DNA from: Clavelina lepadiformis
Lineage: Eukaryota; Chordata; Ascidiacea; Aplousobranchia; Clavelinidae
Length of the DNA stretch: 64,000 nt
Reading direction: 5' to 3'
Assembly: GCF_947623445.1 (NCBI RefSeq)
Contig: NC_135245.1
Span: 19,041,501-19,105,500 of the forward strand
The notes under the pieces are model-generated. The model saw only the letters and a program-made list of their open reading frames with translations, was not told the origin of the DNA and did not search any database. The position numbers and the translations under genes were made by a program. Below are positions 3,501-60,291 of this stretch, piece after piece (the first letter of the stretch is position 1; every line of letters begins with the position of its first letter).

Positions 3501-4951
3501 TTTTTGAGTCATTTTAGATCAATAACAAAGTAACACCCTCAAATTGACATGAATGAATACATAGAAGTTTTACTTGCCACTTTTATAGTTACTTTAATAC
3601 TTCATTGATGTTATCCTATCCTTTGATTGCTTTATTATAATGTGTATGATGTTGTTTCAGCGATACACTTCGATGAAATTATCGTGAATTCTCAAGAATT
3701 CAACGATTCAAGTATTTTCTTTTCCGTTCAGGTGTAAGTCTTTGTGCAATCATTGACTTCGAATCAGCAGAAGACGCGTTGACCGCCGTTCGAGTTCTAA
3801 AGTTCTTTCAAAGGCAAACCGGTAGTTCGATGGACGGAGAACGTCAAGAGGAAGGTGTGACGTCACAAGACGAACCATCTTTGGCTACGATAAAATTTAA
3901 GGAAATTTTAAAAGGTAACTTCTGTGGTTTGGTGTATTGCAGTATTTAACTTTTACAAGGTTTTCAATGAGATAAATTTCGTTGGTTTGAGTAGGCTGGA
4001 GTAAAATGCTTTGATGTTAATGGATGCCACTTCAACTTTTAAACGACTATTGCGTCGCCCACTCGGTAAAAGAAAAATGTCTGCAATTTCAACTATTAAT
4101 ATCATAAACAATTGCTGTTTTTTTCACATCATTGTTTATTTTCATCGTTTGAAGGTGCATTCCTCCTCTTAAAAGGTTTTTAAGAGTCCATCTTTTGATT
4201 TTTGTTTGGATAGGATTTTCTCTCTTCCAAAACAAAATCTATTTTCCTTCTTTCTTCAATGTTATATTGAATTGCTTTGAGAGGTCTTCTGCCCAATAGG
4301 GAAAACATAATCTTTTGTTTCTTAACATTTCATCTAACTTATTTTAATTCGCTTTTTAATCGACTCATTCTTTCATTTACTCTTTTGCTTTCATGATGCA
4401 AATTCTACTTTTAGCCTTTGCAACATTTCTAACATTTGCATAAAATCTTAATCCAGAAAAGGCCTTTCGTTTTTTGTTGACTTTCACCAATCTTATGGGC
4501 ATCAACAAGGTTGTGAATTATTTTCTTTGTTTTCTCAGACCTTCCAGCTCTGCAAGACATGAGACTCGCACTACTAGGACCTCGTGTGCGTCGGACACTC
4601 TACAGACAAGATCGTTTAGGAGGAGATCAAAGTCAAAACCCATCTTCCTTCAAACCACCAAGAAGCTTTCTAGCAAGTGACTTAGAGCTGAAACACAAGG
4701 CTAACCTCGGCAGAGAAGACAGTGTCACCGATACAGCTTTTGACTTCTCAAGAAAACCGAAAATAGAACCCCGTCATCTGTCCAACTATTGTTACATAAC
4801 AAAGCACAATTCCCTTTCACACAATTTTTCTTGTCGCAGAAGTGCGGTCAAGGGGACATCATACAAAGTCATACCAAATCAGTGTTACGTAATAAGGCAA
4901 CCTAGAGGACCCGATCAAAGCATCGGTTTTACCTTGAAAAGAAATCTGTAA
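515..4951 (+). CDS. LARP6: La-related protein 6 (LARP6), RNA-binding protein
   Basis: Eight exons: 515-559, 840-954, 1498-1766, 2216-2458, 2665-3036, 3241-3391, 3732-3914 and 4539-4951. They are in phase throughout and give 596 residues. The N-terminal third is low-complexity (Tyr/Pro-rich, then acidic and Ser-rich). The La motif follows in exon 5 (around YYLSDDYLVKDKYLL and ITSFKKVKKLTRDW, the latter almost as in vertebrate LARP6). An RRM spans exons 6-7 (VIRLPDEY, FGEIEYVRLLRADREVP, then the ALTAVRVL helix). The last exon ends in a SUZ-C box (RQPRGPDQSIGF), the LARP6 signature. Family knowledge: LARP6 binds stem-loops in mRNAs such as collagen 5' UTRs and acts in mRNA localisation and translation in the cytoplasm. 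The exon 1 start (MDNQMTV) is inferred from phase and a good donor; the first two exons are the least certain. Confidence 0.93.
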
Positions 4952-25330: not shown

Positions 25331-28300
25331 ATGTCTGAAAATGAAGCAAAAAATGAAGATAATCTGGAGATGAAGGACGTGGTATATTCTAATGATGATG
25401 TTTTTCCAAATAATGAAGGTGATTGTGAACAATAAGTTATTTTTCTATTTGTATGCTCTGAGGATAAAGCTTCATACGTTCTGTTTGAAACAGTGTATGC
25501 CCTGTCATGTGGAGGAACCAGATTTAAATTTTAAATTTCTGTTTTAACTTAAAAACAAAACTTTTTTCCAGAAGGCATGAAAAACCTTGAAAAACACTGA
25601 TCCCATGTATGATATATGTATATAAATAATTAATAACAATCTATTTTTGGGTGATAATTTTGCTGTAAATTGTTTGCAGAATGTGAAAATCTTAGTCTTG
25701 TTGCTGACCCATCTGAACTGTACAAAAAATTTCAGGAGTTTTGCAAAGCAAATGGGTAAGAAGGTCTGAGAATTTGAATATTGCCAACTTGATATACACA
25801 TAAAGTGCCTAGCTCTATGGCTTGCACATGTTTAAAACTGGAACCATTTAATAACCATTAATATCATAAACTTAAACTTTGAGGTAAACAAGTAAAGTTA
25901 CACTAGCAACATTTACCAAGAACTTTGTCATGTGTTTAAACTTTTTTCTGATGCAATATTGAATTGCCATTTGTCAATATTTTTTTCTTATTATCCTGGT
26001 TTATCAAAATTTAATTTGTTTTTATATTCTTTTCAGGTCACGAAACCAAAGCACAGAATTCTGCGGTGAAGGTTGGTATCTGCTTAACTTGCTGTTTTAA
26101 TTTATCTGGTATTTGTACCATAGTGAGTACCAGTATTGAAAGAAAATTGGCTGCCTAAAGCCCTGCACAATAACACTGTATGTTTGACATGTTTGTTATA
26201 CACTCATTGAGCTATTTTTTTTTTGAGTATATGTATATAATATAGATATTGCCATTATAGATGAGTCATTCCATGTATAATCAACCAGGCCCTGTAACCA
26301 CTACTCTTGGATTTTGATAATTTCAATATATATATGTTATAGACCTTGAAAAAAGCCGAAGATTAAAAAAAAAATTTGAAAATATCTCCAGGCGTTTTCG
26401 AGCTATTCAAATTTGAAATTTTCGCCACACGATGGCCTTTGGCTAGTGAGCACTAGTCACGCTTTATGATTTTCTTTAATATCTTTATTTCTGAAGGTAG
26501 AATAATGAAACAAATGTTGAATTTACCATTTTTGGGGTCAAGGAATTCATTTAAGCACATAAAAAAACCTATATCACACCTCCTTCATGGAGTAAATTAA
26601 GTTTTTTCATTGATGTCAAAGTTCAAGTTTACGATGCAATTACAAAAATAGCAATCGCATTGAAAACATAATTTTTCCACTTTTGTGTAGCATGGTTCAT
26701 GTATTTTCATGTATCCAAAAATTGGAAACTTGTTTTTTGTTCTTTAGGAATAAAGTTGGTTTTAACAGCAAGCACGATTTTTAAGATCTTTATAAGATAT
26801 AAAATGCAGATTTGAGCAATATCGTATAACTGGTCATGCATATATGCAAGGTTGCAATTCCAAGGCACCAACTGCTAGTGTTTAAAGATTATTCACCAAA
26901 AACATTAATTACTGCCTGCTAAAGGTGCACTCTGAGAGAGGTTACAGTAAATTTGACTTCCTTTTTGAACTTTAATTTTGCCTACTCCTATTTTGATTCT
27001 TATTATTTTATTATTCTTATTATTATTTTGATTTCATCTATGTATGAAAATGATGAATTTACCCGTTTAATCCCTGGAATTAAAGATTATGTAAGTGTTT
27101 TCAAAAATGTTCATTAGCAAAAGAGGCTCATTTTGTGTAATTTGAAGGAATTATATGCCACATTTTGTGAAAAATATCCCGAGCTGAAGATTGGATTCTT
27201 AAAGTTTTGTTCACTCAGTCCCAAATGGTGTGTCTCCGTATCGTCCAAAGGCAGTCATTCTGTCTGTGTGTGCATCCAACATCAAAATTCAATCCTTCTG
27301 GTTGATGCTACCAACAACAATGAAACATACAAAACATTGATTGACAAAATAGTGTGCAGCACGGAGAACAAAATGTGCGTATTGCATCGTTGTGAACAAT
27401 GTCCTGGGTTTCAAGCACTAGAAGGCTTTTTACTTGCACAGTATGATGAGGAACTTGATGATGAAGTCCAATGCCAACAATGGAAGTCTACAGACACGAT
27501 GGATCTTATCACGGTGTTAATGATGAGATATGAATGGATTCAAGAAATTGTAAGAGTTTTGGATGATCTTACAAAGCATTCATTCATAACTAAATGCCAA
27601 TCTAGATACTTAAACTCCAGAAAGAGTTCTTTAACAGATGATAATTGTGTGATTTTGCTGGATTTTGCTGAGAATTACACTTTAACAATCCAAGATGAAG
27701 TAAAAAGCATTCACTGGAACCAGCAGCAATGTACAATCCACCCCGCTGTTGTGTATTACATGCATGATCACATCTGGTCAGATGTAGGTCTTTGTAAGCT
27801 AGCTGTCTTAACCAGTCATTTAACAGTACTTCGAACACCATCACATGGAGATTTCCCGTGACTGCTTGGAAAAAAGGACCAACACGCTTCCAGGTTGAAA
27901 TCAAACTTGTGATGGCACAAATTCAGCATATTTTTATACTGTCCAGCGCAACCGTCTGAGAAATATTCAACTTTAGTAATGGTGCTGGACAAGCTTGGAA
28001 TCAATGCAGTGAGTTTGTACAAAAGCCCATGCACAAAAGCTGTGTCATGTGTTAAGTCATCTGAAACAAAGCAAAATGACTGCTGCACAACAGCGGGGTG
28101 GATTGTACATTGCTGCTGGTTCCAGTGAATGCTTTTTACTTCATCTTGGATTGTTAAAGTGTAATTCTCAGCAAAATCCAGCAAAATCACACAATTATCA
28201 TCTGTTAAAGAACTCTTTCTGGAGTTTAAGTATCTAGATTGGCATTTAGTTATGAATGAATGCTTTGTAAGATCATCCAAAACTCTTACAATTTCTTGAA

Positions 28301-31300
28301 TCCATTCATATCTCATCATTAACACCGTGATAAGATCCATCGTGTCTGTAGACTTCCATTGTTGGCATTGGACTTCATCATCAAGTTCCTCATCATACTG
28401 TGCAAGTAAAAAGCCTTCTAGTGCTTGAAACCCAGGATATTGTTCACAACGATGCAACACGCACATTTTGTTCTCCGTGCTGCACACTATTTTGTCAATC
28501 AATGTTTTGTATGTTTCATTGTTGTTGGTAGCATCAACCAGAAGGATTGAATTTTGATGTTGGATGCACACACAGACAGAATGACTGCCTTTGGACGATA
28601 CGGAGACACACCATTTGGGACTGAGTGAACAAAACTTTAAGAATCCAATCTTCAGCTCGGGATATTTTTCACAAAATGTGGCATATAATTCCTTCAAATT
28701 ACACAAAATGAGCCTCTTTTGCTGATGAACATTTTTGAAAACACTTACATAATCTTTAATTCCAGGGATTAAACGGGTAAATTCATCATTTTCATACATA
28801 GATGAAATCAAAATAATAATAAGAATAATAAAATAATAAGAATCAAAATAGGAGTAGGCAAAATTAAAGTTCAAAAAGGAAGTCAAATTTACTGTAACCT
28901 CTCTCAGAGTGCACCTTTAGCAGGCAGTAATTAATGTTTTTGGTGAATAATCTTTAAACACTAGCAGTTGGTGCCTTGGAATTGCAACCTTGCATATATG
29001 CATGACCAGTTATACGATATTGCTCAAATCTGCATTTTATATCTTATAAGGATCTTAAAAATCGTGCTTGCTGTTAAAACCAACTTTAATCCTAAAGAAC
29101 AAAAAACAAGTTTCCAATTTTTGGATACATGAAAATACATGAACCATGCTACACAAAAGTGGAAAAATTATGTTTTCAATGCGATTGCTATTTTTGTAAT
29201 TGCATCGTAAACTTGAACTTTGACATTAATGAAAAAACTTAATTTACTCCATGAAGGAGGTGTGATATAGGTTTTTTTATGTGCTTAAATGAATTCCTTG
29301 ACCCCAAAAATGGTAAATTCAACATTTGTTTCATTATTCTACCTTCAGAAATAAAGATATTAAAGAAAATCATAAAGCGTGACTAGTGCTCACTAGCCAA
29401 AGGCCATCGTGTGGCGAAAATTTCAAATTTGAATAACTCGAAAACGCCTGGAGATATTTTCAAAATTTTTTTTTTAATTTTCGGCTTTTTCCAAGGTCTA
29501 TAACATATATTGAAATTATCAAAATCCAAGAGTAGTGGTTACAAATTTAAAAAAAATTGGTTGATTATACATGGAATGACTCAGATATAAGAAGCATTAC
29601 GGAGTATGCATATATATATGCATACATAACATAATTACTATTCTTGCTCTGTTTCATTTTAATGTTGTAGAGGAACACTCCCTTTTGTCTTCAAGCATTT
29701 GTTCGGATTATTCAAATCATTCAGCCACTGAAAACAATGACATGTAGGTTTCATTTGTTTGCTACCCATTGAAATATCAGTCTTTAGTAATTCCACATTA
29801 AATATAATGAATAAACTGTTAGTTGTTGATGTGTGCTTGATTGTGAAATATTTCATGTTTATTTATAAATTTTATTGTAATATGGAAATGTCTGAATGCA
29901 GTGAAAGAAATGACTTGTATCAACGAAATAAATCACTTCGGGAACAAAATAACGAGTTGAATGAAAAGATGGATCAGTTGATGCGTCAACTGGAAAATGT
30001 CGAAGACGAAAATAAGCAACAACGTTCAGAAATCATCATACACGAAAAAGAAATGAAAACGTAAGGAATTAATTTTTTTATATAACTAAAATCTTCTAAG
30101 CTATAGGCCTAATTATTATTTATTTCCCCACTTTATTGGCAACTTGGACAGATTTTATACATATATTCAATCCATAGCTCGTTTCTAGGCTTTTAAGTCA
30201 TATTTCTTGACTGTTATCTGTTATCAAAAATTATTTATAGCATTGTCATAATTATTAAAACCAAACGTTTAAATTATTTGTAGGTACAATGATTTGATGC
30301 AAGAATTGCAGGTTGAAAACATACAAGCACAGGCTGATCTTGCTGAAACGAAGGAGAAAGTTCTTCTGATGGAAAACAATATCAGAAGAATGAAGGCTGA
30401 TGAACTGGACCTGAGGGCTATGAACAGAAACTTACAAGATCAGGTAACCAAAGACAGGAAGTTCCTTTGCAGCCCTGCTGTAAGTCTATTCATTGATCGA
30501 TGTTTGCTGCTGTTGAAATACTGGATGAAACACGCATTGTGCTTATGCAATGTTGTATATATAAAGTTTTATAGCTTTTGCTTTGATGTTTGCAGAATGA
30601 TCATTTGAGTAATGACCTGAATGTGGCAACTATGTTGAAGTTTGCTCTCAATGAAGAAAATTCTACATTAAAAGTATTTTTCACTCTATTTAGTGTAGTC
30701 TATTCCTCTTGCAAGCTTAATCATTTAGCAATGTATTATTACAATACACTGCAAAATGAATGTGATACATTCTAAATAATTCTTTTTGTCTTAATGTAAT
30801 ATTTATGTAGATAAAGATTTTGATGAATTGGTTTATTCTAGGAAAGGTGTGAAGGCTTGGAGGCAGATGTTGATCTCAAAAACAAAGAACTTGATGAGGT
30901 AATTGCCACGTTTTGCGATTTTCTTGGGATTAATTTGGTTCTGGAGTTAACATTAGCAAGTCAATGAAAGTATAATGTGAGTTAGAAGCCACAAAGAAAT
31001 ACAATGTCTATGTTATTGCAACCAGAAATTGCAGCTTTATCAAGATCTTCGTGAACAAACAGAAGAATTTAAATCTTCAGTACAGGTAATGCAGCATTTT
31101 GTTTATTTCTGCTTTGCTTCATTATATATTAATGTTTTTTGCACTAAAGCGGTTGATTGATTGTCTACCGGACCCACTAAAGCAGTGGCTCTCAACCTGA
31201 TGTCATGTCAGGTGGAGATGCAAGCACCTTTGTTTCATTCCTGGTTTTAAGCTAAACATTTACCTAACAGATATACATTTTAGGTCTATTAATTTAAAGA

Positions 31301-39305: not shown

Positions 39306-41240
39306 CTATAACTTATCGGTGGCGGAATGGGTGTTTGTCTGATTTGTTTTAGTTTGTAATTGTAGCGCACTTTTAGCGGCCTTTTTCCGCAGATAGCCTG
39401 CTTTAAAGATGTCACATATTTCATCGCGAAATTTCTGATGACGTGCACTGTAAACCATGACGTTGACCAGACTAAAATAAAAACATTCATCATCAGATCT
39501 CTTTTCATTTTCATGAAGGTATTCTGTTTACTAAACCAAAGGAATGGTGTTGGCCTACCTGTTTGCCATGCCAATGTAATATGCAATCATGTAAGCTCGA
39601 TCCAAGAAAACACAGTCGAAATTGTTGTTAAAATCGACAAATACTACAACAAAAGTCGGAACTGCAAAAAAAGGAAAAAGTTTTTGAAAAAATTCAAAAC
39701 AACAAAAAAAGCTTATTTTGCTATCAAGCTATAGTAATATCACTTGTTGTTGCAGTGAATCCAATTTGCATGTAAACAATTGTTTTTAAAGCAGTGATGT
39801 GCTTCTTTTGATCTAACAGTGAAGAATTTCTTCCGTTGCTGTTTTCTCTTTCTCCAGCAATTTTTCTTCCGTTTCGGCAGACAAAGACGACACCAGCAAC
39901 ACACGAAACAAGCTGAGAATTAAGATTTTAATGAACTTTCGTGTAAAATACACTACTTTTACTCTTAAACAACTTTCATGGAAAAATAACGCAACAAACA
40001 GCAATTAAGTTTAAAATGGTACAAGATGTTACACAACAACAACAATAAATCAATTATTTTATTCTAACAGAGCTTAGACAAACATTTCATTCGACCTACT
40101 AAGAGAATGAAGGGAATAACGTATAAGAAAACCCAGGCCGCAGTAGCAGCGGCAGTATGGCACGATTCCGTGCATCCAGGAATGAAAAGAAACAAGGCCG
40201 GAAAATAACGAAATTGATAGCTATCAGGAAACCAAGCTGAAATTTATCATATTCGAAAACGTTACTGGATGTTTAGATGAAAACTTTATGTCCTAAATTG
40301 TCCTTACATAATATAATCTAATCCAAATCTATCCAACAGTACAAAATATTTGACTGCAATATGTATAACAGCTGTAATATATCAACATTGTATAACTAAT
40401 GCAGTGATACTTTTGATCTTTTTACTTTCATTTAACAGATTTTACTGCAAAGAAGGTATTTACCTGCACCAGTTGATACTAATATAGAGGCAATCCAAAC
40501 CACCAGAAGTCCTATAATCATGGATTTGTTTCGTAACGCTGAGTAGTTCGCACTTTTAATAAGCGCATAGAACCTTTCCATTGCCACAAAAAGCAGATGG
40601 AAAATAGATGAAGTAACCCCAAACATAAGAAACATGCCCCCAACATGCGCTTCGGGAGACCTTTGCAAGACGAGCCATCTTTTAATCAACTCAGCCGGTG
40701 TAAGTTTCATGGACCAGACAATGTTGTTAGGTATTATAACCAGAAACTGAAAAGCTGTGAGATTGGAATCGTAACGGCCAAGTTACGATAAACTTCTTGT
40801 CGTTAATTTTGTGATATGCGTTATGATCTTTCGAATTTTACCAAAATTTACTCTAGTGGTTAATTACACTTGGTAGCCTATTTTACCGGTCAGAATATCA
40901 GCACACGCCAAAGATGTTTTGCAGATATCCAATCTTGAAAGGTCGTCCCGTTTCCATCTCCTGTAACCGATGCATATTACAAGAGCATTGCCAGAAAATA
41001 TCATCAATCCAATGATAATCATTCCGATCATAAACGCAGCTTCTCTTCCCACTCCACATTGTTGACAAGAGTTCCAAGTCTGATTAAAACAATTGATGTA
41101 AAGGTCTTGCATTGAACCGGAACAAAATGCGGGTATGGGACAGTCCAAGAAGAGGTTTTCGAAATGGCCATCGATGAAATTAAAACGTGATGTTATATTT
41201 TCATCCTTCATTTTGGGACAATATTCTAGGAAGTTTTTAT
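39306..41240 (-). CDS. Rhodopsin-like 7TM receptor, cluster copy 1 (short ectodomain)
   Basis: Six minus-strand exons: 41240-40887, 40754-40464, 40236-40100, 39912-39744, 39661-39559 and 39471-39306. Several match exon sizes of the other two copies exactly (291 and 103 bases). The 7TM part has TM1 with GNALVICIGYRRWKR, TM2 with LACADILTG, an ER motif after TM3 (AMERFYALIK), and TM7 ending NSLVNVMVYSAR instead of the usual NPxxY. A cysteine-rich linker (CFNQTWNSCQQCG) precedes TM1. The first exon enters in phase 1 after a good acceptor, as in the paralogs, so an upstream exon should exist. I found no CUB or sushi exon within 41241-43031. Either translation starts at the internal ATG (41211) with almost no ectodomain, or a small leader exon is missed. 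Ligand unknown; plasma membrane expected. Confidence 0.82.
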
Positions 41241-43031: not shown

Positions 43032-46000
43032 CTAAAGCATAGCAGTTTTGCTGGTAGGTAAAGATACTGTTGTTTGGGCTGTGTGCTTTGCTGAGATCTG
43101 ACTTGCAAATAGACTTTTGTTCTTTTTATTTGTCGTAGAATTAGAGGCTTTACTGGCACCACCTCGTGAATAACCAGGTCGAAATATGTTAACGATGTCT
43201 CGGCGAAAATCTTTTTCTCTTACACTGTAGATGATGACGTTGACAAGACTACAACGAATAAATGAGTTATTGGTTAGCACGTTTTTATTGTAGTTTTACA
43301 AAGTCATCAAGTAATGATGATTCCTTGTTGCCTTGTAATTACCTGTTGGCCATGCTTAGATAAAATCCGACCAGGTAGGGTTGGCTGAGACTGTTGCAAT
43401 CCAAGTGTCCAGAATAAAACAGAGAGACAACAACAACAATAGGAACTACAAATATAACATAGTGTTTATCCACGACGATTTCTCATTAATGAACATCTCC
43501 CGAAGAAAATCGTTTTGGATTTTGTGTTAAGTTTTTCATATTTTCACATTTTATGATTTTCTAAGAAAACAATTTAATCATTTGCTATAAATTTAAATTA
43601 TTTTAGTCATACTCAGCGTTGCAGTGAATCCAATCTGCATCAAGGTTATTGTTTTAAGAATAGACCTCAGCTGTTTTCTCTTGGAGTTTAACAGCGTGGT
43701 ATTTGCCAAATTATCCCAAGATGTCTTCTTCACACCACGATGTATAAAACCAACAGTGAAAACACACGTAGCAGTCTGTAAATATTGATAACAATTAATA
43801 ACTAATCAACTGACGAAGTACCTTGCAATAAAATAAATCAGATTTAGGAACTTGAAGACATGAAAACATATTTACAGTTTCACTTGGCAACGACACATAG
43901 TTTAGCCAAACTTACCAGACATAGGAACGGAATAAGATAGAATAGAACCATCATCACAATGGCAACTGTGTAGTCATCATGATGAGGATCTTCATGAAGA
44001 GCAGGATAGAAGAGAAATGTTGTCGTCATGTAGTTGAAGATGAATTTTCCAGGAAACCAAGCTAACAATAATACAGATACTTCTATGTACTTGCAACAAA
44101 CTTGAAGACATAGGAAAGAAATGACAACATACAGAAAAAAATTTTGTGAAGATTTAAATGATCAGTAAAATATAAAGTGCATTGTCTATGTTTTGTAAAA
44201 AGTATTGTAATTTTTATCTACTTTCAAGCGTACAGCTTAAACCAACCCATATAGCCGTGTTAATAGTTTGTCAAAAACAATGTTTTTTCGCTTACTCTCT
44301 CACCAAATACAGAAGCTGTTACGACAGAAAATATCCACACCAGACTTAGACCGTAATACGTGGCCGATTTGCCGCGCCATCTATATTTAAGTGGTTTTGT
44401 AATGGCATAGACTCTCTCTCCTCCCATGTAAAGCAGATGATAGAGGGATGAGGTTAAACTGAAGATGAGCAAAATTCCACCCACATATGCTTGTGCTGAT
44501 CCCTGCAGGACGAGTTGTTGTTGGTCGAGCTCAATCGGAGTAAGATTCATGGACCAGCTGAAGTTGTACACCATCACGACCAGTATTTGAACGCCTGTGG
44601 TTACATAATACAAAATCTAACCGGCTTTCATCTATGTATTAAAAACAATCGAAAATAAAAAAGTTGAAGAAGTAAGTTAATATCAAGTATCTATTAAAAA
44701 TTTATTTCTTAAATTTATATTTTCACTTTTTACGAACCAACGACAAAGAAAACGAATATTGCACCTGTCAAAATATCAGCCACAGCAAGCGATGTTTTAC
44801 ATATGTCTAACTTGGTCGCATTTCTTCGCTTCCATCGCCTGTAACCGACGCATATAACAAGAGCATTGCCGACGAATATCATCAATCCGAAGATAACCAT
44901 CAAGATGAGGAAGACGATTGCTCTTCCTACTCCACATTGTTGACAGGAGAGAAGAGTTTGGTTGAAGCAGTTGATGTAAATATCACGTATTGTACCCACA
45001 CATATTCCCGGAAACCCACAAACGGTCGAAATTCGTGATGTAACGTTTGGTTCGTTTGTGCTGGTCCTTTCATTCGACGTGTCGTTAGATCGATCATAAA
45101 TGACGTCAACTAAAATTGACGTAGTCGTGCTGTCAAATGAATGATGTGGATAGTAGAATAACTCTTCCACGGGTCCATAAAATATGAAGCGAGCTGGGAC
45201 TTGCCCAGGTGCTAATGAATAAAAGTCTAAAAACGAGAAATTAGTTAAGTTTAAGAACTTGTACTATTTTCAATAGACCTGTATGTTATAACTATTTATG
45301 CTGTTGATAGAACTTACAATTCTGCAAACGAAAGTATGGAAATATTATACTTTCACTTGCTAAATTATTAGCCTTAATGCCTGTATTAGCAGACTTGTAT
45401 TTTTGGGTGTTCAGGTCAGTGGGTTCTAGAAAGTTAACTTTATAAAAATCGTGAATCAAAGTCTTGGCTTCCAATGAATACCAGCAAGCATGGTGTGAAA
45501 GAAATAATATCAATCATATCTTTCAATGATAAAACTTACAACAACGAGCTAAACCTTTGCTCTCATCACTCTTACGCCAAACATTGTTCCCTTCGCATGT
45601 GTTATTACCGGCTTCATAACTTCCTAAAACGTTTTTACACGTGTATGTCACAGTTTCTCCTTTTAAGTAGGAACCAACCTTTCCTACGGCTGGACCGGCT
45701 AATGCTTTCGGGGGATTGCCACACCCTGCAGTAAATAGGAAAGATCAAATAAAAGATCAACACGTACAGATTGGAAATAAAACCATGTCATAAACAGACA
45801 TCTTCTACAATCCAGTATTTTCACGCGTTGCAGCCTTAAATTTGTGCAGAACGATAGCGTGTGAAAATAAATTTATAAAGGCGCTCTTTTACTTTTCACC
45901 AGCACCGCTACCAAATATGTCAACTCCTAAGCAACTTGATAACTTTACAATTGTATTTTAACCACCTGTTTCAGGAACCGAGCATGTGGGGACAACTTTC

Positions 46001-47149
46001 AAATCCCAAAACAATGTGAAGTACCCGCTCCTTCGGCAAGTGGTTGCGGTGACGTCATTAGTAAAAAGTCCGGGGTCGCAGACGTAACGAGCAACAGAGT
46101 TTTCCGTGGTTGACGTCACAATTATTGTGGCGTTTAGTGCGGCGGGCGGCTCTCCACAGTCATCTGATAAAAGAAAATTTCGCCAAGGTTTGTTTTATCT
46201 TTAATTGAAAACTTATTTTTTTGCTGAAACACATTTGTGAGTTTGTTGTTCATCACTACATAACAACTACACACCTGGTTGGCATCTGGGAAAATCCGAA
46301 GAACTGCGATTTAAACTCCACCTGTTGCCTTGAAGGCAAGTGCTGGTGTGTCCAGCAGGAGCGTCCAATTTAAATCCGTATGTGCAGAAATATTCTATTT
46401 CTATGTCTGGCATGAATGCCCCGTTTGACGCAAATGACAAGAAAAGGTGAGCACTGAACCCGCCATTAGTAATCAATGCTGGATTCCCGCAGCCTGCATT
46501 TCAAATATAATTAGTTAATTTATTACAATAAATCCGGAGAAGGTTAACTTCTATAAACAAGAAAATTTCATAACTTACTTGCAAAAAACTAATAAAAAAG
46601 AAGCGTTTAACTCACCGAAGGACGGTTCTACGCAGGAAAAATTTCCCGATGTTTGACAACAGGTCACTGAACTCCTCTCATGGGATCTAGAAGATAAAAT
46701 TCTCTCTTCACAGAAAACATGAGATGCTTTCGCATCGTCCGGGATTAAACCGGTATCGCAGTAGTAATGTGCTTGGTAACCACTTGGAGAATGATACGGG
46801 CCGATGAAAGTTGCTCTTGGCACTTGTCTTGGTGGGTGGCACGCTGTGGAGAGCACGAAAATAACATTCCATTGATACGAATTAGCTTTTTTTCATCTAA
46901 CAGATGCACTAAAGGGTAACTGCGGCCAAATTTTCATGGCTGTCTTCTTTTTGCAAAGACGTGAATGCCATAAATTAAGTAACCTTCATTTATTCTTTCA
47001 CTTTAAACCTTGTCCTAGTATTAGATTGCATTTAGCGTACAGTAAAATATGATACAACTTTATAAAACTGTTTATTTCTTACGTTGAGGCTGAACACACG
47101 GCGAGAAATAGCTTAGAATTAGAATCCATGTTTTCCACGATTGATCCAT
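43032..47149 (-). CDS. Sushi-domain 7TM receptor, cluster copy 2
   Basis: Eleven minus-strand exons: 47149-47083, 46843-46616, 46493-46275, 46163-45966, 45725-45540, 45226-44765, 44594-44304, 44061-43916, 43775-43613, 43445-43343 and 43248-43032. They total 759 residues. A signal peptide (MDQSWKTWILILSYFSPCVQ) is followed by four cysteine-rich modules, one per exon, all in phase 1. The first is an atypical module with CC, the next three are sushi/CCP-like (CGNPALITNGGFS, CGEPPAALNATI, CGNPPKALAGP). A Ser/Thr-rich stalk and the CFNQTLLSCQQCGVG linker precede the 7TM region: GNALVICVGYRRWKR (TM1), LAVADILTG (TM2), GGERVYAITKPLKY after TM3, NSLVNVIIYS (TM7). The C-tail is Lys/Ser/Thr-rich. Class A receptor by TM1/TM2 motifs, but with no CWxP in TM6 and no NPxxY. 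It faces copy 3 head to head. No CUB exons seen upstream. Confidence 0.88.
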
Positions 47150-51284: not shown

Positions 51285-54200
51285 ATGGGATTCTTGTGGT
51301 TGGTTCTGACGCTCAGCTGTTTTGCGGTTTTCAACAGAGCATTTGGTAAATTTTAAAAAAATAGCTAATTATTTGGAGTAAGTTGTTGAAAAAGATTTTG
51401 AGATTTGTAAGTTAACAAATTAGAAAAAGTTCAAGAATTTTTTGAACTTTCTTTACGGCAATCTTGAAACCAAAGCGAGTTTCAACATGTGTAACAGAAT
51501 TTTGCACGACTACTCTTAAGCTATACATCAAGTATGCACGGTAAAGATAAAGTTACATTAAGCCGTGTGTTGGCTCATGGTCACCGCCACTTGTACATAA
51601 AATGGTTTCACCAGGTAAAGTTACTTCCCACGCAAGATTAAACAGTATACAACACCGCGTTACCGATACACATGTAGATGCATGTCATGTTGTATAACGT
51701 TTTGTACTTTTTAAACAGCTTTAGTATTTCACATTTTAGGCCATGCAAATGACACGATTGTACTTGCAGGAAGTATATTTAGTTTGGGTTTGGTTCCCGA
51801 CCGAGAAGGTCTTTGTATGCTGTTGTTAATGAATTACCTGTTAATAAATTGAGCTTAAGTTTTGGTTGATGTGATTGGCGGTTAGCGGTAAAAGATCTGG
51901 AAAAATTCCAACGTTACACATGCATATATATATATATACTGTAAAATACGAAAATCCATTTAAGTTTATGCTATTAAATTCTTATATAATTACCATGCAA
52001 AATGCAAATCAATAAAGATGAAGGATGATATCATTATACATCGACATCAACAATTTTAGGTAACTTGTAGATTCAACTTGTAACCTCATTGTTTCAAAGA
52101 TACAAGTTCCTGTGGAAACGAATTCACAGCAACCAACGAGCAGCAGACTTTCACATCACCCGGCTGGCCCGATGATTATGAAAATGATCTTTTCTGTTTA
52201 TGGACAATCACTGCAGAGACTGGAAAGGTTATACGACTGGAATTTTTATCGTTCGCCACCGAAGACGGTTTTGATTTTCTTGAAGTGGGTTTTCAATAAT
52301 TCCCTTAAAATTAATGTAAAATTATCAAAATTTTGACAATGAATTTCAAAATCTATTTTTATTTTTTAAGTTAGCTGCTGGAGAATTGTGTTTTTTTACA
52401 AGTTTACACTATTTTTTTTGATGATATTTTTTTTATGATTTTAATGCTCATGTTTTTTAACAAGCAAAAATATGTATATACACTTGGTATTAGATTCGCA
52501 GCGAAAATGGGTCAACACTACTTCATATAAGTGGCAGCGACATACCAGATCCATTATACTCCGCTGACGATGTGATCGAAATACTTTTTGATTCGGACTT
52601 CTTTGTAGCAGACAAAGGTTTCGAAATCGCGTTTTCTGGTAGGTTTATTGATCAGTAACTCGCAAAATAGTAGACTTAACAACTTATCATTCAGACACAT
52701 GTGAGAATATTATTGAAGTGAATTTCCGCAATGAAAATCTAGTAAGAACAAAAGGTTCATAAATTTACAAGTTGTAATTGCAATCACTTCACAATTTGAT
52801 ATTGTTGGACACTTGACCTTGAGAAAGTGTACATTATATTTCGTACTACGCTTTCCGACTCTGCTGATCAAATCTCAGCATAAGTAACTGAATCCACCCA
52901 GCGAACGCCAATGAAATTTCACGACAAACATAATTTTTTTTCAGAAACACAACTTCTTTCCTCGCCACCTACATCTCAAAGTGCAGGTTTGATTAATTGA
53001 TAAACATTTCCCACTGTCTTGTGTTCGTTTGAAATAACAACTTGACAGTTCACTGTTAACTTCTCATAGCGCTTTCAATGCTTTTATCTGGCTTGGCACA
53101 GCTGATCTCCCAATGAACAAAACTTTTTACTAGCCTGCGGGGACGAATTAACTGCAACCAGTGAAATCCAATCTTTCCGCTCTCCCGGTTGGCCTCATTA
53201 CTACCAAAATAATGTGTCGTGTTTGTGGACGATGAACGCCGAAGCAGGAAAAGGAATTCAACTCAAAATTCGTTACTTCATCACGGAATGGTGCTGCGAT
53301 GTATTGAGCGTAAGTCTACTGTATATTTCCAGGAGGCCAAGGTCATCTTATCTATAAACTCTACATAGTGGATAGTGTATACCTACGTTTAATGAGAATT
53401 TAGAGTACAAAGGTTGCGCTTTCAATTAATTGTATATCGAGTTTGAAATTATTCTATTATTGCTGTGGAGTTTATATTTATCCAAGTTACGTTTAATTTA
53501 AGATTCGCGACAAAACTGGGTCGACGCTTTATGAATTAAGCGGCAATGTTGTTCCAGCCGCAGTAGTTATTCCTGAAAAGGAGATCGAAATAATTTTTAT
53601 TTCAAATCCAACCACAAGAAGTGAAGGTTTTGAGATTCTGTTTACTGGTAAATAGGCAGTCATATTGTTGGACTTTCTTGTTTAGGAGATCATTTGTTTT
53701 GAATGACATTAAAAAATGGATAATTTAACGTTTTTAGAAACCGAAAAAGAACCACCAGCTCTTCTTATAATTGCGACAGGTAATTGATTTAAATTTACGC
53801 TTGTTTGTATAAATGTGACTATGATACTGGTCTCAGGTGTAACTTTTAAAACTGAAAAATTTGTTTAACTGTACGAAATATTGGATAGAAAGAAAGTTAA
53901 AATACCGGGATTTTGAGAATAGGGTATTTTCCTGAAATCAAACACTACAGTATCGCATAAAGCAGCGATCAACTTAATATTCTTTATTTAATATTTTAAT
54001 ATTCAACTTATTTAATATTCGCCCTGAATTTTGCAATTGTACCCCTGGGGGTGCAAGTATGTCCCAGTTTGGGATTTGTGCTTACAGTAGCCTATTATTT
54101 TGAAACGATGGAAAGTATGACGGATAGATTTGATCGATCATCATCTTCATCAAGAGTTTTTGGTTATATTTTGACTTCTAGCGCCTACGTGCGGAGATGA

Positions 54201-57200
54201 ATTTTCAGCAACCGATGAAGAACAGACACTTACATCTCCGGGTTGGCCCGATGACTATGCCAATAACCTGCATTGTTTGTGGAGAATCACCACCGAGACC
54301 AAGAAACGAATAAGACTGTGGTTTCTCTCGTTTAACACAGAATGGTGTTGCGATATGCTTAGTGTCAGTTAAGCTGCTATTTATGTTTTTATCTTTCATT
54401 TCATTTACTATGGCTTTTTACCTGAAATGTCAAAGGTATTTTACGTTCACAAACTTCTAAAAATGAATTGTAAAGATTTTTTTATTTTTTACCATTATCA
54501 GCATCGATGTATATTTTTTTTGATGCTTTTATATAAATATTTCAAAACAATGTCTTGTTATTTTGTGCTTTAAGTTTAACAGTTAACTTTAACTTTACCA
54601 GCCGTATGAGATGATAAATTTAGTTTATCACCATTTATTAAAACATTATCTTTGTTATAAAAACTAAATAATAAATATTATACGAAAGATTCGCAATGAA
54701 AATAGATCAATAATCTATGAGATGAGCGGACCTATATATTGGCCTGAGCAAATAAGCTTTGCTGAAAACAAAATTGAAATTGTTTTCATCTCTGACCGAA
54801 ATGTTGCAGAAGCTGGATTTCAGATTTCGTTCGATGGTAAACTATAATAGATAATAAAGTTTACGTATTTATAGGTTTGTGGCGAGAGAGATCTATTGTA
54901 ATTTATACATGTGTAAATTTCAATTGCCAATAATGTGCATATTATGATATAAATGTGTATAGCATCGCTACTAATTACCTGATGATTACTAAGACATTAA
55001 GTGAGACATCAATTAGTTTTTATAGTAAATGTTTTACACTTCTAATTTCATCATTAAATAAGTCTTGTCAATTTAAGAGTTGCCAAAATTAGACAAATTT
55101 TTTAAAGTAATAGAAACTATCCCATGCGGAGGCGAATTCGCGGCAAGTAATGAAAGTCAAAGACTAAGAACTCCCGATTGGTCAGGTGATTACGGAAACT
55201 ATCTTTCTTGTTCATGGAAGATCACATCGGTGACGACGGCCGCAATACAACTGGAGTTTTTATTATTTAAGATTGAAGAGTGCTGCGACAAGTTTAGCGT
55301 AAGATAGCCTTTAAGTATCAAGAATGTGTTTTAAAGAAATATTTAACTTTTAAAGTTTTTTAATTCCTACATTCCTTGTCTGCCAAAATGCACTGATAAG
55401 TTTTCATATTTTACGAAATTTTTTACAAATTTATGGTTTTTGTAGATTCGAAACGAAAAGGGAATAACTATAAAGAACATTAGCGGTGGTGATGTTCTCC
55501 CAGACACACTCATGTTGTCTGAGAATGTAATTGAAATAATTTTTATTTCACAAAAGTTCAGGAGAGCGACAGGATTTGATATTAGTTTTGTTGGTAAAAT
55601 CAAATTATTTTCTACATATTTGAGCTGCTGCTGTCGGAAATCTTCCATTTTAAAAACATCGCCCAAGTTTTGAGCTAAAATTTAACTTTTTAAGACGCCC
55701 GGGCTTAACACTCTATGTACCAGCATCAGTTATTTTTTGCTCAATTGCCACAAATGGGAAAGTCGAAGTCTTCCTGTCTCTAGTAATACAGAAGCACGAC
55801 TCAATTTGTAGTCTCGCTGTAAAGATGGAAGGTTCCCGACACAGCTGTGTACTTCGCATAATCTGTCGGTTGTTAAGTAATATCGGTCGAATCTAAGCTA
55901 TCACGTAATTCATGTCCAAATAAATGAAACGTTTTTCTTCTTAGATTCCAGTCTAGAGTCTGCGCCCTTTGCAAGTAAGTGATAGTAGTAACTTTTTCAC
56001 CGATTAGGTGTTTGTCGTAATATATCTAATTTGTCAAAATTTCTAATTGGTGAATTGTTTTGGCAAAATGATAAATCGTTTTAATTCATTTGTTTGCAAT
56101 GATGTTTACTAAATTTTTTCGTTACAAGAAATAACAAATAATTTTAAGCAGTGTTTAGTTGACTATAGGTCAAACTTTGTTATTAAATACTAACAAATAA
56201 AATATTAATCTTTAATAAACGTTTTTATGGAAGCTCGGTGTTAAAATATTTACTGCAGGTTAATACCAGGCGCTGTAGGTGTTATAGGTTTTATGTAATT
56301 TTATTGGCTGTAAACAAACATTTTAAGTAAAGTAATCATAAGTCAGTAACAAAAAGTTTTGACATTTAATAACTGCTAAATTTTGACATTTATGGAAACC
56401 TTTGTCTATATTTATAGCTTGTGAAAGTCTGCCAATTGTCAATAACGCAGCTTTTGTAGCTGCGAATTTGCTGTCCAGCCATTATTATACGGCGTACTAC
56501 TTCTGTGACTCTGGATTGATAGCTGATAACATATTGGCAACTTATGTAAACTGTAGAAACTCCAACAACATTTTTGAGAAAATTGAAATGTGTTGTCAAG
56601 CGCCAGGCAATTTCTCATGCATGGAACCTTCTTTCGGTAAATTTATATTTTATATTTAGATTCTTAACTCACGTCAAATATGTCACAAAATAAGTAAATA
56701 TGTCGCAAAACCTTTATTCGTTTTCCTCTGCAGGTTGCGGTAATCCTCCGTTGCTCGTTAACGGTGGGTTTAGTGCCGATGTGGGGGTGGTTACCCAGCC
56801 AAACGAGCCCTTTCCATTGGACACACAAATAGAATATTTCTGCATCGATGGATTTAAATTGGACGATCCTGATGGATTCACCAGCACCTGCCTTCAAGAC
56901 AACAGATGGAGTTTGATTCAAAGTTCACCTGAATTTCCAAGATGCCAATCAGGTTCTTTGTCACGTCATGTTGTTAGGCTTCTAGCAGTTCGAGCAAAGC
57001 AAAGTTTTTAAGCACAAGCTTGCTGACGATATTGCTTAGTCTTGAAGCATCCATTGAGCATCGGTTAAACTTTACCTTGGCCGGATAAGCATATAAATGT
57101 GCTGGCTCAAACAAACCCAACCCGAAAGCATTGACGCATGCCTTTAATTTTTATCTGTGTTCACAAAATTTTCCGTCGATATCATGGAGATGTTAAATAA

Positions 57201-60200
57201 ATTTTATTTTGTCTGATAAGCCATTGTTCTCTTAGATGATTGTGGATCACTTCCAGAAGCTAAAAACTCGGTTATTATTGCGACGTCAACCACGGAAGGT
57301 TCTGTTGCGAATTACGTCTGCGATCCCGGATACTTTACTAATGACGTCACAGAAACCACCTGCCGACGAAGCGGATATTTTACCTTATTTTGGGATTTGG
57401 AAGTTATTCCCATATGCTCGCTTGCCGTAACAGGTGAAAATAGACTTGGACAATTTATGAACTGGTTTAGGCTTTGGGGCATTGCGTGCTCTTGCAGTAA
57501 AATTTAAACATCTCCGCGATAACTTTGCTCGATATCACAGCTGGAAAGCGATGTAGTTATAACTTATAAGTCCATTTCCTCTGTTGTGATTCAGGTTGTG
57601 GAAACCCACCGCGATTAAAAGGCGGCGTGGCTGTCGGAAAACGTGGAACATATATAGAGGGCGACATTGCTTGGTACATGTGCCCGGGAGAACAAACCTT
57701 TGATCCGATGGTAGAAGTTGGTAAGACGACATGTTTAGACAACAATCTCTGGAGTGTCATAGAAACAGGACCGTGTGCCGGTGAGGTTTTGACAGGTTTA
57801 CTGCGGTTGCAAATTTCCTTGAGCAAGTAACAGAAGTTACAGTTTTCATGCATTTTACCTATACTCTGAGAAGAAAGTATCGACCAATATATTATGTTAA
57901 AAGCTGTGGTGTATTGAACTTGACATAAAGTTTTGTTTTAGCCTATCTCCTGACCAGTGAAAGTACAATAAATAAATGACCAGCTGAGTAAAAAGCGAAG
58001 TTTTTTCTAGATCATTATGACCCTGGGCTAACTGTTTCGGCTCGTTTTGTATTTTTTGGACCCAGGGAAGACCTGTCATACTTCCCCAATCACGTGGCTC
58101 ACACCAATGAGATTGTTGAAAACGGTCTCGAGTTTCCTACGGTGGAGAACGTCCTGATGTTTCCAGTAGCAATAAACACCGCACCTCCGACAAAATTGTC
58201 CACAGTAAATGCATCCAGTGCGCAGCTCACCAGGGCCAAAATAACTGAAGCCCAGGTAGCCAGCGCAGAGGAATCTGGACTGGATGTCTCCGGTACGCCC
58301 TTAATCGGTGCGAAAATCTCAAGCGTTTGTGGGTTTCCGGGAATATGTGTGGGTACAATACGTGATATTTACATCAACTGCTTCAACCAAACTCTTCTCT
58401 CTTGTCAACAATGTGGAGTAGGAAGAGCAATCGTCTTCCTCATCTTGATGGTTATCTTCGGATTGATGATATTCGTCGGCAATGCTCTTGTTATATGCGT
58501 CGGTTACAGGCGATGGAAGCGAAGAAATGCGACCAAGTTAGACATATGTAAAACATCGTTGGCTGCTGCTGATACTTTAACAGGTGGATTGGTCTATGTA
58601 CATGTACTTTTGATTTGCTGGAAACACTTTACCATCAGGAAGATAATTATTCCACTTGTTCATTTATGTACCCACAGGCGTTCAAATACTGGTGGTGTTG
58701 GTCTATAACTTCAGCTGGTCCATGAACCTTACTCCGATTGAGCTCGACCAACAACAACTCCTCCTGCAGGGATCAGCACAAGCATATGTGGGTGGAATTT
58801 TGCTCCTGTTCAGCTTAACATCATCCCTCTATCATCTGCTTTACATGGGAGGAGAGAGAATCTATGCTATCACCAAACCTTTACAATATAAATGGCAAAG
58901 TAACACATCTCTATATGCTGGACTTGTTTTGGTTTGGATTGTCTCCATTATAACAGCTACAATATTTGGTAAGACAGTTTTTCAATGCTCCTTTATTCCT
59001 AATTGTGCAAGGTAAAATCTCATAAGACAACAAGCCATGGATTATTGCCTTCAACAAAACGGCAAAAGAGACTTCTTACAAAAATCACAGTAGTAATTAT
59101 AAAAATATTGTCAAACTTAAATGTTTTTTAATTAAAAAGAAGATAAAAGCTATCAAGTTGTTCTAACTAAAATAAAATGAAACAAAAGCACTTCTTGTTC
59201 TTATTTTGTTACAAAGTTTGTTTTATAACTTATTGAAAGCAAAATGGCTGTTAACAATTTTTGGATGGGTTCAGTTATTTGCTCGCTAAAGCAGAAAACC
59301 TGTTCTTACAACAGAAAAAAGCATTGCTAAAATTAAAAAAATTATAGAATGTTGTTTTCTAAATCTCAGCTTGGTTTCCTGGAAAATTCATCTTCACCTA
59401 CATGACGACAACATTCCTCTTCTATCCTGCTCTTCATGAAGATCCTCAACATCATGACTACACAGTTGCCATTGCGTTGATGGCACTATTTTATATTCTC
59501 CCTTTCTTGTGTCTGGTCAGTTGATTGAAATTTCCCAATGAACGAACAATTTGTTGAAGATATTTTACTTGACCGTTTATAAAATATTTTGCGTTCTAAT
59601 TTTATTAGATGCTGGAATACAGACTTGTGAATAGAATGCTTTGTATAACTTTGAAAATTGTAAATTATTTTCAACAGAGTGCTTCGTGTGTATTCGCTGG
59701 TGTGTTCATCTTTCATAGCTGGAGAAATGAGCCTTTAGTTGGGAAAGAAAACAGCAAAATCTCAGACTCCAAGAGAAAACAAAGGGTTTCAATTCTGAAA
59801 ACGATATCCTTGATGCAAATTGGATTTACTATAACTTTATGTAGGATTAGTTTTGCAACGTTTTGTTAAGTCGGCATTAATCTCCAAAATTTACCAAAAA
59901 TGTCAATATTATTAAAAAACAATTAATATTATACTCCGTGAAGATTACGCTTTAAATTTCGAATTTTATAAAGAAACGAAACTAAAAGTGAAAGTTTTTG
60001 TTTCCAGTTCCCATCGTGGTAGTTGCTGGTTTGTTTTATTCGGGACACTTGGATTGCAACAGCATTGGTCAACCTAACATGGCTGCATTTTATGTCAGCA
60101 TGAGTAACAGGTATATTGGCGATTGTCCGATATATTGTAGCTTGATGCACTTTAAACAAGTAAACTTTTTTACGTCTATTTCAATATTTTTTTCTTATAG

Positions 60201-60291
60201 TTTGGTCAACTTCGTCATCTACAGCGCTCGAGAGAAGAATTTTCGTCAAGACAGTATCGACATATTTCGACCTCGCTCGATTACCCAGTAA
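51285..60291 (+). CDS. CUB-sushi-7TM receptor, cluster copy 3
   Basis: Twenty-two in-phase exons, 1237 residues: 51285-51345, 52100-52284, 52494-52638, 52945-52986, 53134-53309, 53503-53647, 53738-53779, 54182-54363, 54689-54836, 55078-55298, 55446-55593, 55945-55974, 56418-56636, 56734-56952, 57236-57433, 57595-57780, 58011-58583, 58678-58968, 59370-59515, 59678-59840, 60008-60110 and 60201-60291. The signal peptide is MGFLWLVLTLSCFAVFNRAF. Four CUB domains follow, each from two exons (CGNEFTATNEQQTFTSPGWP; CGDELTATSEIQ; CGDEFSATDEEQ; CGGEFAASNESQ), then four sushi-like modules matching those of copy 2 exon for exon. A stalk and a class A 7TM region follow, with GNALVICVGYRRWKR, GGERIYAITKPLQY and NSLVNFVIYSAR. 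CUB and CCP modules normally bind proteins or carbohydrates, so they may capture ligand for the 7TM part. I do not know this domain order from vertebrate receptors. AATAAA follows at 60298. Confidence 0.9.

Follow-up and report, generated by a model that had tools for sequence, protein, structure and literature searches.

A sushi-bearing class A receptor of Clavelina lepadiformis with a probable block of four CUB modules at its 5′ end

Does a single gene of the ascidian Clavelina lepadiformis place complement-type recognition modules directly on a rhodopsin-type 7TM core, or does an apparently continuous exon chain run across two neighbours? The question arises from a 64,000-nucleotide stretch of chromosome 6 (the window), in which positions 51285–60291 of the + strand had been predicted to form 22 exons encoding 1237 residues. 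Exon chaining preserved a chain in which all exon phases are compatible, 22 of 22 introns are GT–AG and the single stop is at the end, but it gave 23 exons and 1245 residues. Skipping of exon 4, which has a weak donor (AAG/gttcat), stays in frame and leaves 22 exons and 1225 residues; the length of 1237 was not reproduced. The content of the original prediction stood: one intact chain encodes a signal peptide, four CUB modules, four sushi modules, a stalk and a 7TM region, in that order. Pfam supports this with matches to CUB (E 4e-67, four stretches), Sushi (E 1.6e-11, only two of the four modules being individually above threshold) and 7tm_1 (E 2e-15, residues 947–1223).

The chain opens with a signal-peptide exon that ends in phase 1 (51285–51345). 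Each CUB is interrupted internally by a phase-0 intron: CUB 1 (52100–52638) consists of exons 52100–52284 and 52494–52638, CUB 2 (53134–53647) of 53134–53309 and 53503–53647, CUB 3 (54182–54836) of 54182–54363 and 54689–54836, and CUB 4 (55114–55593) of 55114–55298 and 55446–55593. CUB 1 lacks the CC pair present in CUBs 2–4. The optional exon 4, of 20 residues (52695–52754), and a 14-residue linker, exon 5 (52945–52986), lie between CUB 1 and CUB 2, and a further 14-residue linker, exon 8 (53738–53779), follows CUB 2. Next come a 30-nt phase-1 linker, exon 13 (55945–55974), a degenerate sushi 1 (56418–56636), sushi 2 (56734–56952, also recognized by Pfam), sushi 3 (57236–57433) and sushi 4 (57595–57780). 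Exon 18 (58011–58583) encodes the stalk, a five-cysteine hinge, TM1 and TM2. The AlphaFold model assigns TM3 and TM4 to exon 19 (58678–58968), ECL2 and TM5 to exon 20 (59370–59515), the end of TM5, ICL3 and the start of TM6 to exon 21 (59678–59840), the end of TM6, ECL3 with an invariant cysteine and the start of TM7 to exon 22 (60008–60110), and TM7, helix 8 and the stop to exon 23 (60201–60291). Consistent with the shuffling type of border proposed earlier, the CUB and sushi modules have phase-1 borders, and CUBs of the same two-exon layout occur on chromosome 8; the phases of the TM exons are mixed.

The sushi–7TM fusion is secure, because three lines of evidence agree. The deposited protein of this locus, P0026, equals residues 574–1245 and agrees exactly with exons 14–23, of which exon 14 is covered from an internal Met onward; a head-to-head neighbour has the same layout and phases; and sushi and 7tm_1 occurred together in all 11 matches of a search for relatives. 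A pseudogene reading of exons 14–23 is ruled out by the identity with P0026. Transcripts ending before the 7TM exons, raised earlier as evidence that would speak for two genes, are excluded for the sushi and 7TM parts by P0026 and the paralogues, P0026 itself beginning after the CUBs. A 7tm_1 family search listed no site in the window and is uninformative either way, because the gene is split into exons.

The head-to-head neighbour, paralogue 1, lies 4 kb away on the − strand (43032–47149) and encodes a signal peptide, four sushi modules, a stalk and a 7TM region, without CUBs, in 11 exons and 759 residues (deposited as P0001). Module order and phases are alike in the two genes, and seven exons are equal in length (219, 198, 186, 291, 146, 163 and 103 nt). 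Paralogue 2 (39306–41240, − strand) encodes a hinge and 7TM region, and its span, as read without a fixed 5′ end, yielded no sushi or CUB module. Between positions 58315 and 58586 of the + strand the DNA is 96.3% identical to paralogue 1 (45033–44762), and dS from hinge to TM2 is 0.07. We read the hinge–TM2 tract as recent gene conversion between the neighbours; TM5–TM7 were not converted. The ectodomains, meanwhile, are diverging within the family. The 20-kb flanks of the window yielded no further copies with the family's TM, CUB and sushi queries (E 1e-4), and the sushi clusters of chromosome 1 (11 tiles at 7.81–7.89 and 8.01–8.04 Mb) gave no match to the family TM or CUB queries and one to sushi. 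On sequence grounds, the sushi–7TM receptors constitute a Clavelina family; since they do so and the sister gene in the window is CUB-less, the CUB block is the special feature of the gene studied here.

Relationships within this group were examined in a tree from which 14 of 30 protein records were left out: fragments (P0015, P0017, P0019–P0021), distant proteins (P0022, P0023, P0025), apparently faulty models (P0008, P0011) and fish CUB proteins (P0027–P0030). Four of its 15 inner branches are well supported. These do not include the grouping of our receptor with paralogue 1 and P0002 (94/86 and 82/89).

What kind of 7TM core is this? Profile scores and conserved positions place it in class A rather than in the Adhesion family. 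Its 7tm_1 score is 57.3 bits against a curated cut-off of 30.5, and all seven relatives scanned reached 59–79 bits. Neither GAIN/GPS nor 7tm_2 is among the six Pfam families matching the protein at E up to 0.1. Adhesion membership was rejected on the missing GAIN/GPS match, which agrees with the predicted fusion of complement-type modules to a class A core without GAIN and reduces the earlier term "adhesion-like" to an analogy of layout. NCBIfam gave no meaningful match for six proteins. The AlphaFold model of P0026 has seven long helices and helix 8 (mean pLDDT 65, pTM 0.50; TM1–TM4 good, TM5–TM7 weaker, with block values of 46–80). Among its 50 listed PDB matches, 47 are class A GPCRs, with TM-scores by target of 0.55–0.78 among the matches listed, and three are complement-control (SCR) chains or complexes.

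The family alignment, in which GPCR position numbers were assigned from motifs, retains D2.50, R3.50, W4.50, P5.50, P6.50, N7.49 and Y7.53 in 15 of 15 rows and N1.50 in 14, the remaining row being incomplete there. C3.25, W6.48 and P7.50 each occur in no row, and 12 of the 15 lack a cysteine between W4.50 and P5.50. The C3.25–ECL2 disulphide, W6.48 and P7.50 are usual in class A, though not universal; given the loss of W6.48, P7.50 and C3.25, G-protein coupling is uncertain. Five cysteines before TM1 are common to 14 of the 15 rows and the ECL3 cysteine is invariant; perhaps the hinge is disulphide-linked to ECL3.

The presence of four CUB modules in front of the sushi–7TM part is probable rather than secure, because P0026 starts inside sushi 1 and no protein with these CUBs was found. 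None of the proteins found (434–1382 residues) contains the CUB block, and none confirms the join of exons 1–13 to exon 14. We nevertheless consider it rather probable that one transcript carries both parts. A possible but doubtful alternative is that a secreted four-CUB protein (exons 1–12 or 13) is followed by a separate sushi–7TM receptor starting at or just before exon 14. Such an arrangement would accord with the absence of the CUB block from the proteins found and with the deposited model of the locus, which omits the CUBs and has Met 574, within exon 14, as its first residue; however, that start falls within a sushi module and lacks a signal peptide. Moreover, the signal-peptide exon of paralogue 1 directly precedes sushi 1, and no DNA match to it was found in the 824 nt that separate CUB 4 from sushi 1. 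This gap contains the phase-matched linker exon; when its sequence was shuffled 500 times, an equally strict exon arose by chance in 29 cases (about 6%). Two start codons in the gap give four start/donor combinations as signal-peptide candidates; three of these were discarded as poor or as having a non-typical donor. The fourth, at 55825–55876 (donor GTAATA), is weak and has arginines in its core, but its hydrophobic peak of 2.01 lies between those of exon 1 (2.40) and the paralogue 1 signal exon (1.74), so the sushi–7TM part might have a separate start there. An AATAAA at 55919 could likewise end a first gene, but AATAAA/ATTAAA sites are common in this AT-rich stretch (26 in 10.5 kb).

Two promoters in one gene, one giving a long CUB4–sushi4–7TM product and the other, in intron 13 or exon 14, a short one, would account for both the intact chain and the short deposited model, but the short product would have a sushi ectodomain without a signal peptide, and we regard this reading as unlikely. 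Decay of the CUB exons, as an inserted block or pseudogene whose expression has been lost, might be suggested by their absence from the proteins found but is very unlikely, because frames and splice sites are intact save for one weak donor and dS exceeds dN in 12 of 12 comparisons of the CUB repeats, an average over the repeats' whole history.

The explanation that we favour overall, with a probability of roughly 0.6, is a tunicate class A GPCR that gained a CUB block at its 5′ end and signals through its ectodomain. In this tunicate family the conserved five-cysteine hinge joins the 7TM core to the ectodomain; many Clavelina members carry sushi arrays, and this one would also have gained a signal peptide and four phase-1 CUB modules. 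The CUB and sushi modules may bind a large extracellular ligand, such as a matrix or complement-type protein, by analogy with CUB in ADGRG6 and sushi in GABA-B1a, the latter a class C heterodimer. In LGR/RXFP receptors, ectodomain and hinge relay binding to the helices and the G protein; the Clavelina hinge, if disulphide-linked to ECL3, might act similarly. Sushi, and probably also CUB, on a rhodopsin-like 7TM core is an unusual way for binding outside the cell to be coupled to G-protein signalling. Provided that the long form is made, it places complement-type recognition modules directly on a class A core, a solution distinct from those of the Adhesion (GAIN) and LGR (LRR) receptors. The hinge and the lost switches offer a testable case of a large ectodomain driving such a core, with the CUB-less sister 4 kb away as a natural deletion control.

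More tentatively, a chordate lineage may have used a class A core to build an independent counterpart of the Adhesion GPCRs. CUB/sushi arrays and a cysteine hinge would be combined with hinge-driven activation in place of the lost switches (C3.25–ECL2 bridge, W6.48, P7.50), and conversion would keep hinge–TM2, and partly TM3–TM5, alike while ectodomains diversify. A role in allorecognition or gamete recognition seems improbable. The diverging ectodomains would suit it, and such recognition has been proposed for polymorphic sushi proteins of Ciona and Botryllus, with vCRL1 and fester as tunicate examples (PMC5465252, PMC9265791, PMC3549757). However, vCRL1 was later found to have no role in fertilisation self-recognition, according to PMC9265791, and none of nine differences between paralogue 1 and deposited P0001 falls in the signal–sushi part (residues 1–299; one comparison).

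The nearest precedent that we have seen is the Ciona intestinalis LDLRR-GPCRs, described in PMC2396169 as class A receptors bearing LDL-A repeats in tandem; 14 further Ciona members have short N-termini. Like the Clavelina family, they are a class A expansion specific to a tunicate lineage, with shuffled extracellular modules arranged in tandem and without an LRR, but they carry LDL-A rather than sushi/CUB; the words "cub", "sushi" and "ccp" do not occur in the main text of the paper. Their TM region is described there as INSL3/relaxin-receptor-like, whereas the Clavelina profile retrieved no LGR/RXFP among the best 60 of 162 PDB matches; together with the lack of an LRR or LDL-A Pfam match, this led us to reject LGR/RXFP membership. 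Two Phallusia mammillata proteins, P0016 (deposited under the name trace amine-associated receptor 9-like) and P0018 (relaxin receptor 2), belong to the same 7TM family and share its odd motifs, P0016 also aligning at the hinge cysteines. Unlike our receptor, their deposited sequences lack sushi and CUB, P0018 being apparently 5′-incomplete. The closest PDB matches are cubilin for the CUBs (E 7e-35) and CD55 (E 2e-10) and CD46 (E 1e-7) for the sushi modules; cubilin and complement regulators are not 7TM receptors. GABA-B1a is likewise a GPCR with a sushi extension, which binds matrix and secreted proteins according to PMC7378325, but has a 7TM region of another family. ADGRG6/GPR126 differs in its HormR-GAIN ectodomain (PMC13197933), its lack of sushi and its Adhesion class, but shares a CUB in a 7TM receptor ectodomain, and this CUB is among the PDB matches of ours (6v55, E 4e-11).

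The window covers positions 19041501-19105500 of chromosome 6 (20,771,506 bases). Passages of the Clavelina lepadiformis genome note give 210.1 Mb in nine chromosomes, with chromosome 6 at 20.77 Mb (PMC10884593); the assembly that we searched amounts to 209.06 Mb. Rebuilt from its splice sites, the CUB-sushi-7TM candidate gene (window 51285-60291, + strand) has 23 exons separated by 22 GT-AG introns of 56-754 nt and encodes 1245 residues (1225 if the weak exon 4 is skipped). The original prediction of 22 exons and 1237 residues is thus revised, but its in-phase chain of CUB, sushi and 7TM modules stands. Pfam detected CUB in four stretches, Sushi and 7tm_1; two of the four sushi modules pass on their own. 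The six Pfam families with matches at an E-value of 0.1 or lower do not include GPS, GAIN, LRR or LDL-A, in line with the predicted lack of a GAIN domain. Phase 1 likewise holds at the module borders, but every CUB is also split internally by a phase-0 intron.

The sushi and 7TM half is a single gene. The possibility of two genes, with transcripts ending before the 7TM, fails for this half, since both parts are present in P0026 (LOC143463502), the deposited protein of the locus, which is identical to residues 574-1245, and in paralogue 1, the head-to-head CUB-less neighbour (47149-43032, minus strand). Paralogue 1 comprises a signal peptide, four sushi modules, stalk and 7TM in 759 residues; compared with the target, its phases are identical and seven exons are equal in length. 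Its deposited version, P0001, differs at 9 of the 759 residues and has 34 additional ones. Sushi and 7tm_1 occur together in all 11 matches to a stalk-7TM query, eight labelled Clavelina and the others, apparently from Clavelina too, being P0003, P0006 and P0009. The matches seemingly come from two annotations, and some may represent one gene; the search scored the 7994 candidates with most words in common and says nothing on absence elsewhere. A profile search returned 14 matches, including Clavelina proteins with 7TM only and two Phallusia mammillata proteins without sushi. Among deposited Clavelina proteins, P0002 is named 'CUB and sushi domain-containing protein 3-like', and by Pfam it has nine sushi stretches and 7tm_1 but no CUB. 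The ectodomains of the family are plastic: Clavelina P0012 (558 aa), which has the family's 7TM, carries a proline/glutamate-rich repeat in place of sushi at its N-terminus. Two others, P0008 (TM7 piece first, end after TM4) and P0011 (TM4 directly to TM6-TM7), probably reflect incorrect annotation of neighbouring sushi-7TM genes.

The CUB half is a probable part of the gene, and we put the probability that CUB and sushi-7TM share one transcript at about 0.65. Alternatively, the sushi-7TM part might have a separate start. P0026 indeed starts after the CUBs, within sushi 1, but this start is in mid-module and the protein lacks a signal peptide. A search among proteins of 434-1382 aa found none carrying the target CUBs. 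The 824-nt gap between CUB 4 and sushi 1 contains a weak signal-peptide candidate (55825-55876), which lowers our confidence in one transcript. However, DNA comparison revealed no similarity in the gap to the signal exon of paralogue 1, and the gap contains one strict phase-1 micro-exon (exon 13, 55945-55974), such as also arose in 29 of 500 shuffles. Moreover, dS exceeds dN in 12 of 12 comparisons of CUB repeats (dS 0.86-2.5 in seven, saturated and not computable in five).

The tree places the target alongside P0002 and the CUB-less paralogue 1, which suggests, with moderate support only, that this gene gained its CUB block. Outside the window, the matches with the best E-values lie in a chromosome 8 cluster at 4.20-4.33 Mb and are CUB exons (45, 42 and 42% identity); in the three tiles examined, these exons stop at the residue at which the first CUB exons of the target also stop. 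Elsewhere on chromosome 8, a CUB-like exon occurs ten times among the places listed at 1262745-1274118, spaced by ~1247 bp, which we read as a probable recent tandem amplification. Sushi exon pairs of equal score at 18635243-18806417, ~79.4-79.5 kb apart, may be either a recent segmental duplication or an assembly duplicate.

The target and paralogue 1 have 272 bp at 96.3% identity in common. Over 85 codons of hinge, TM1 and TM2 (exon 18, 58011-58583), dS is 0.07, compared with 0.53 in exon 19, 0.28 in exon 20, 1.1-1.5 in the last three exons and 0.79-1.84 or saturation in the sushi exons; in the stalk next to the hinge it is saturated. This contrast along the pair indicates that gene conversion homogenised the stretch from hinge to TM2 and, partly, TM3-TM5, but not the end of TM5 to TM7.

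We aligned the core of 15 family proteins, including P0026 and P0001 (both from window loci), and assigned position numbers from motifs. D2.50, R3.50, W4.50, P5.50, P6.50, N7.49 and Y7.53 are retained throughout, position 3.25 is invariably A, and W6.48 and P7.50 occur in none of the 15. Five aligned cysteines precede TM1 in 14 rows, the stretch being missing from the fifteenth, and one invariant cysteine lies between TM6 and TM7; we infer three disulphides, one linking the hinge to ECL3. In the AlphaFold model of P0026 (pTM 0.50, mean pLDDT 65), pLDDT is ~51-77 in the sushi blocks, ~25-35 in the stalk, mostly 74-92 in TM1-TM4 and 46-80 in TM5-TM7. Class A GPCRs account for 47 of its best 50 of 1466 PDB matches. 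SCR (sushi) chains or complexes, including CD46 and CD55, rank 18, 48 and 49 among these 50 and superpose poorly (rmsd 13-14), as expected because sushi arrays are flexible.

On the favoured reading, the CUB and sushi modules would bind a large ligand outside the cell, and the cysteine hinge would pass this binding on to the helices. Analogues of the proposed mechanism are the ADGRG6 CUB, GABA-B1a sushi and the ectodomain plus hinge of LGR/RXFP receptors. Excerpts of the respective sources describe a CUB in the GPCR ectodomain of ADGRG6 (PMC13197933) and sushi on a GPCR in GABA-B1a (PMC7378325), analogous to the target's CUB and sushi modules. A role in allorecognition is less likely, as all nine differences in the one comparison, paralogue 1 versus P0001, lie beyond residue 299, that is, in the stalk, 7TM or tail.

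In the sections consulted, a Ciona GPCR survey describes tandem LDL-A repeats on class A receptors as an innovation of tunicates; CUB and sushi do not occur there (PMC2396169). The target is likewise a tunicate class A receptor with tandem modules, but these are sushi and probably CUB. An amphioxus GPCR survey, in the portion available, places CUB in Adhesion receptors. Searches of titles and abstract openings for CUB or sushi class A receptors and for Clavelina GPCRs, with most subscription journals outside their scope, yielded no description of one.

Elsewhere in the window, an inverted repeat at 26348-29491 (arm length 1406 nt, complementarity of the two arms 99%, spacer 332 nt) contains two copies of one ORF and may be a mobile element, a palindrome or an assembly effect. 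At 2665-4951 (+ strand), one ORF encodes a La domain (E 9e-22) and a later ORF a SUZ-C motif (E 7e-7), together resembling a LARP6-type gene.
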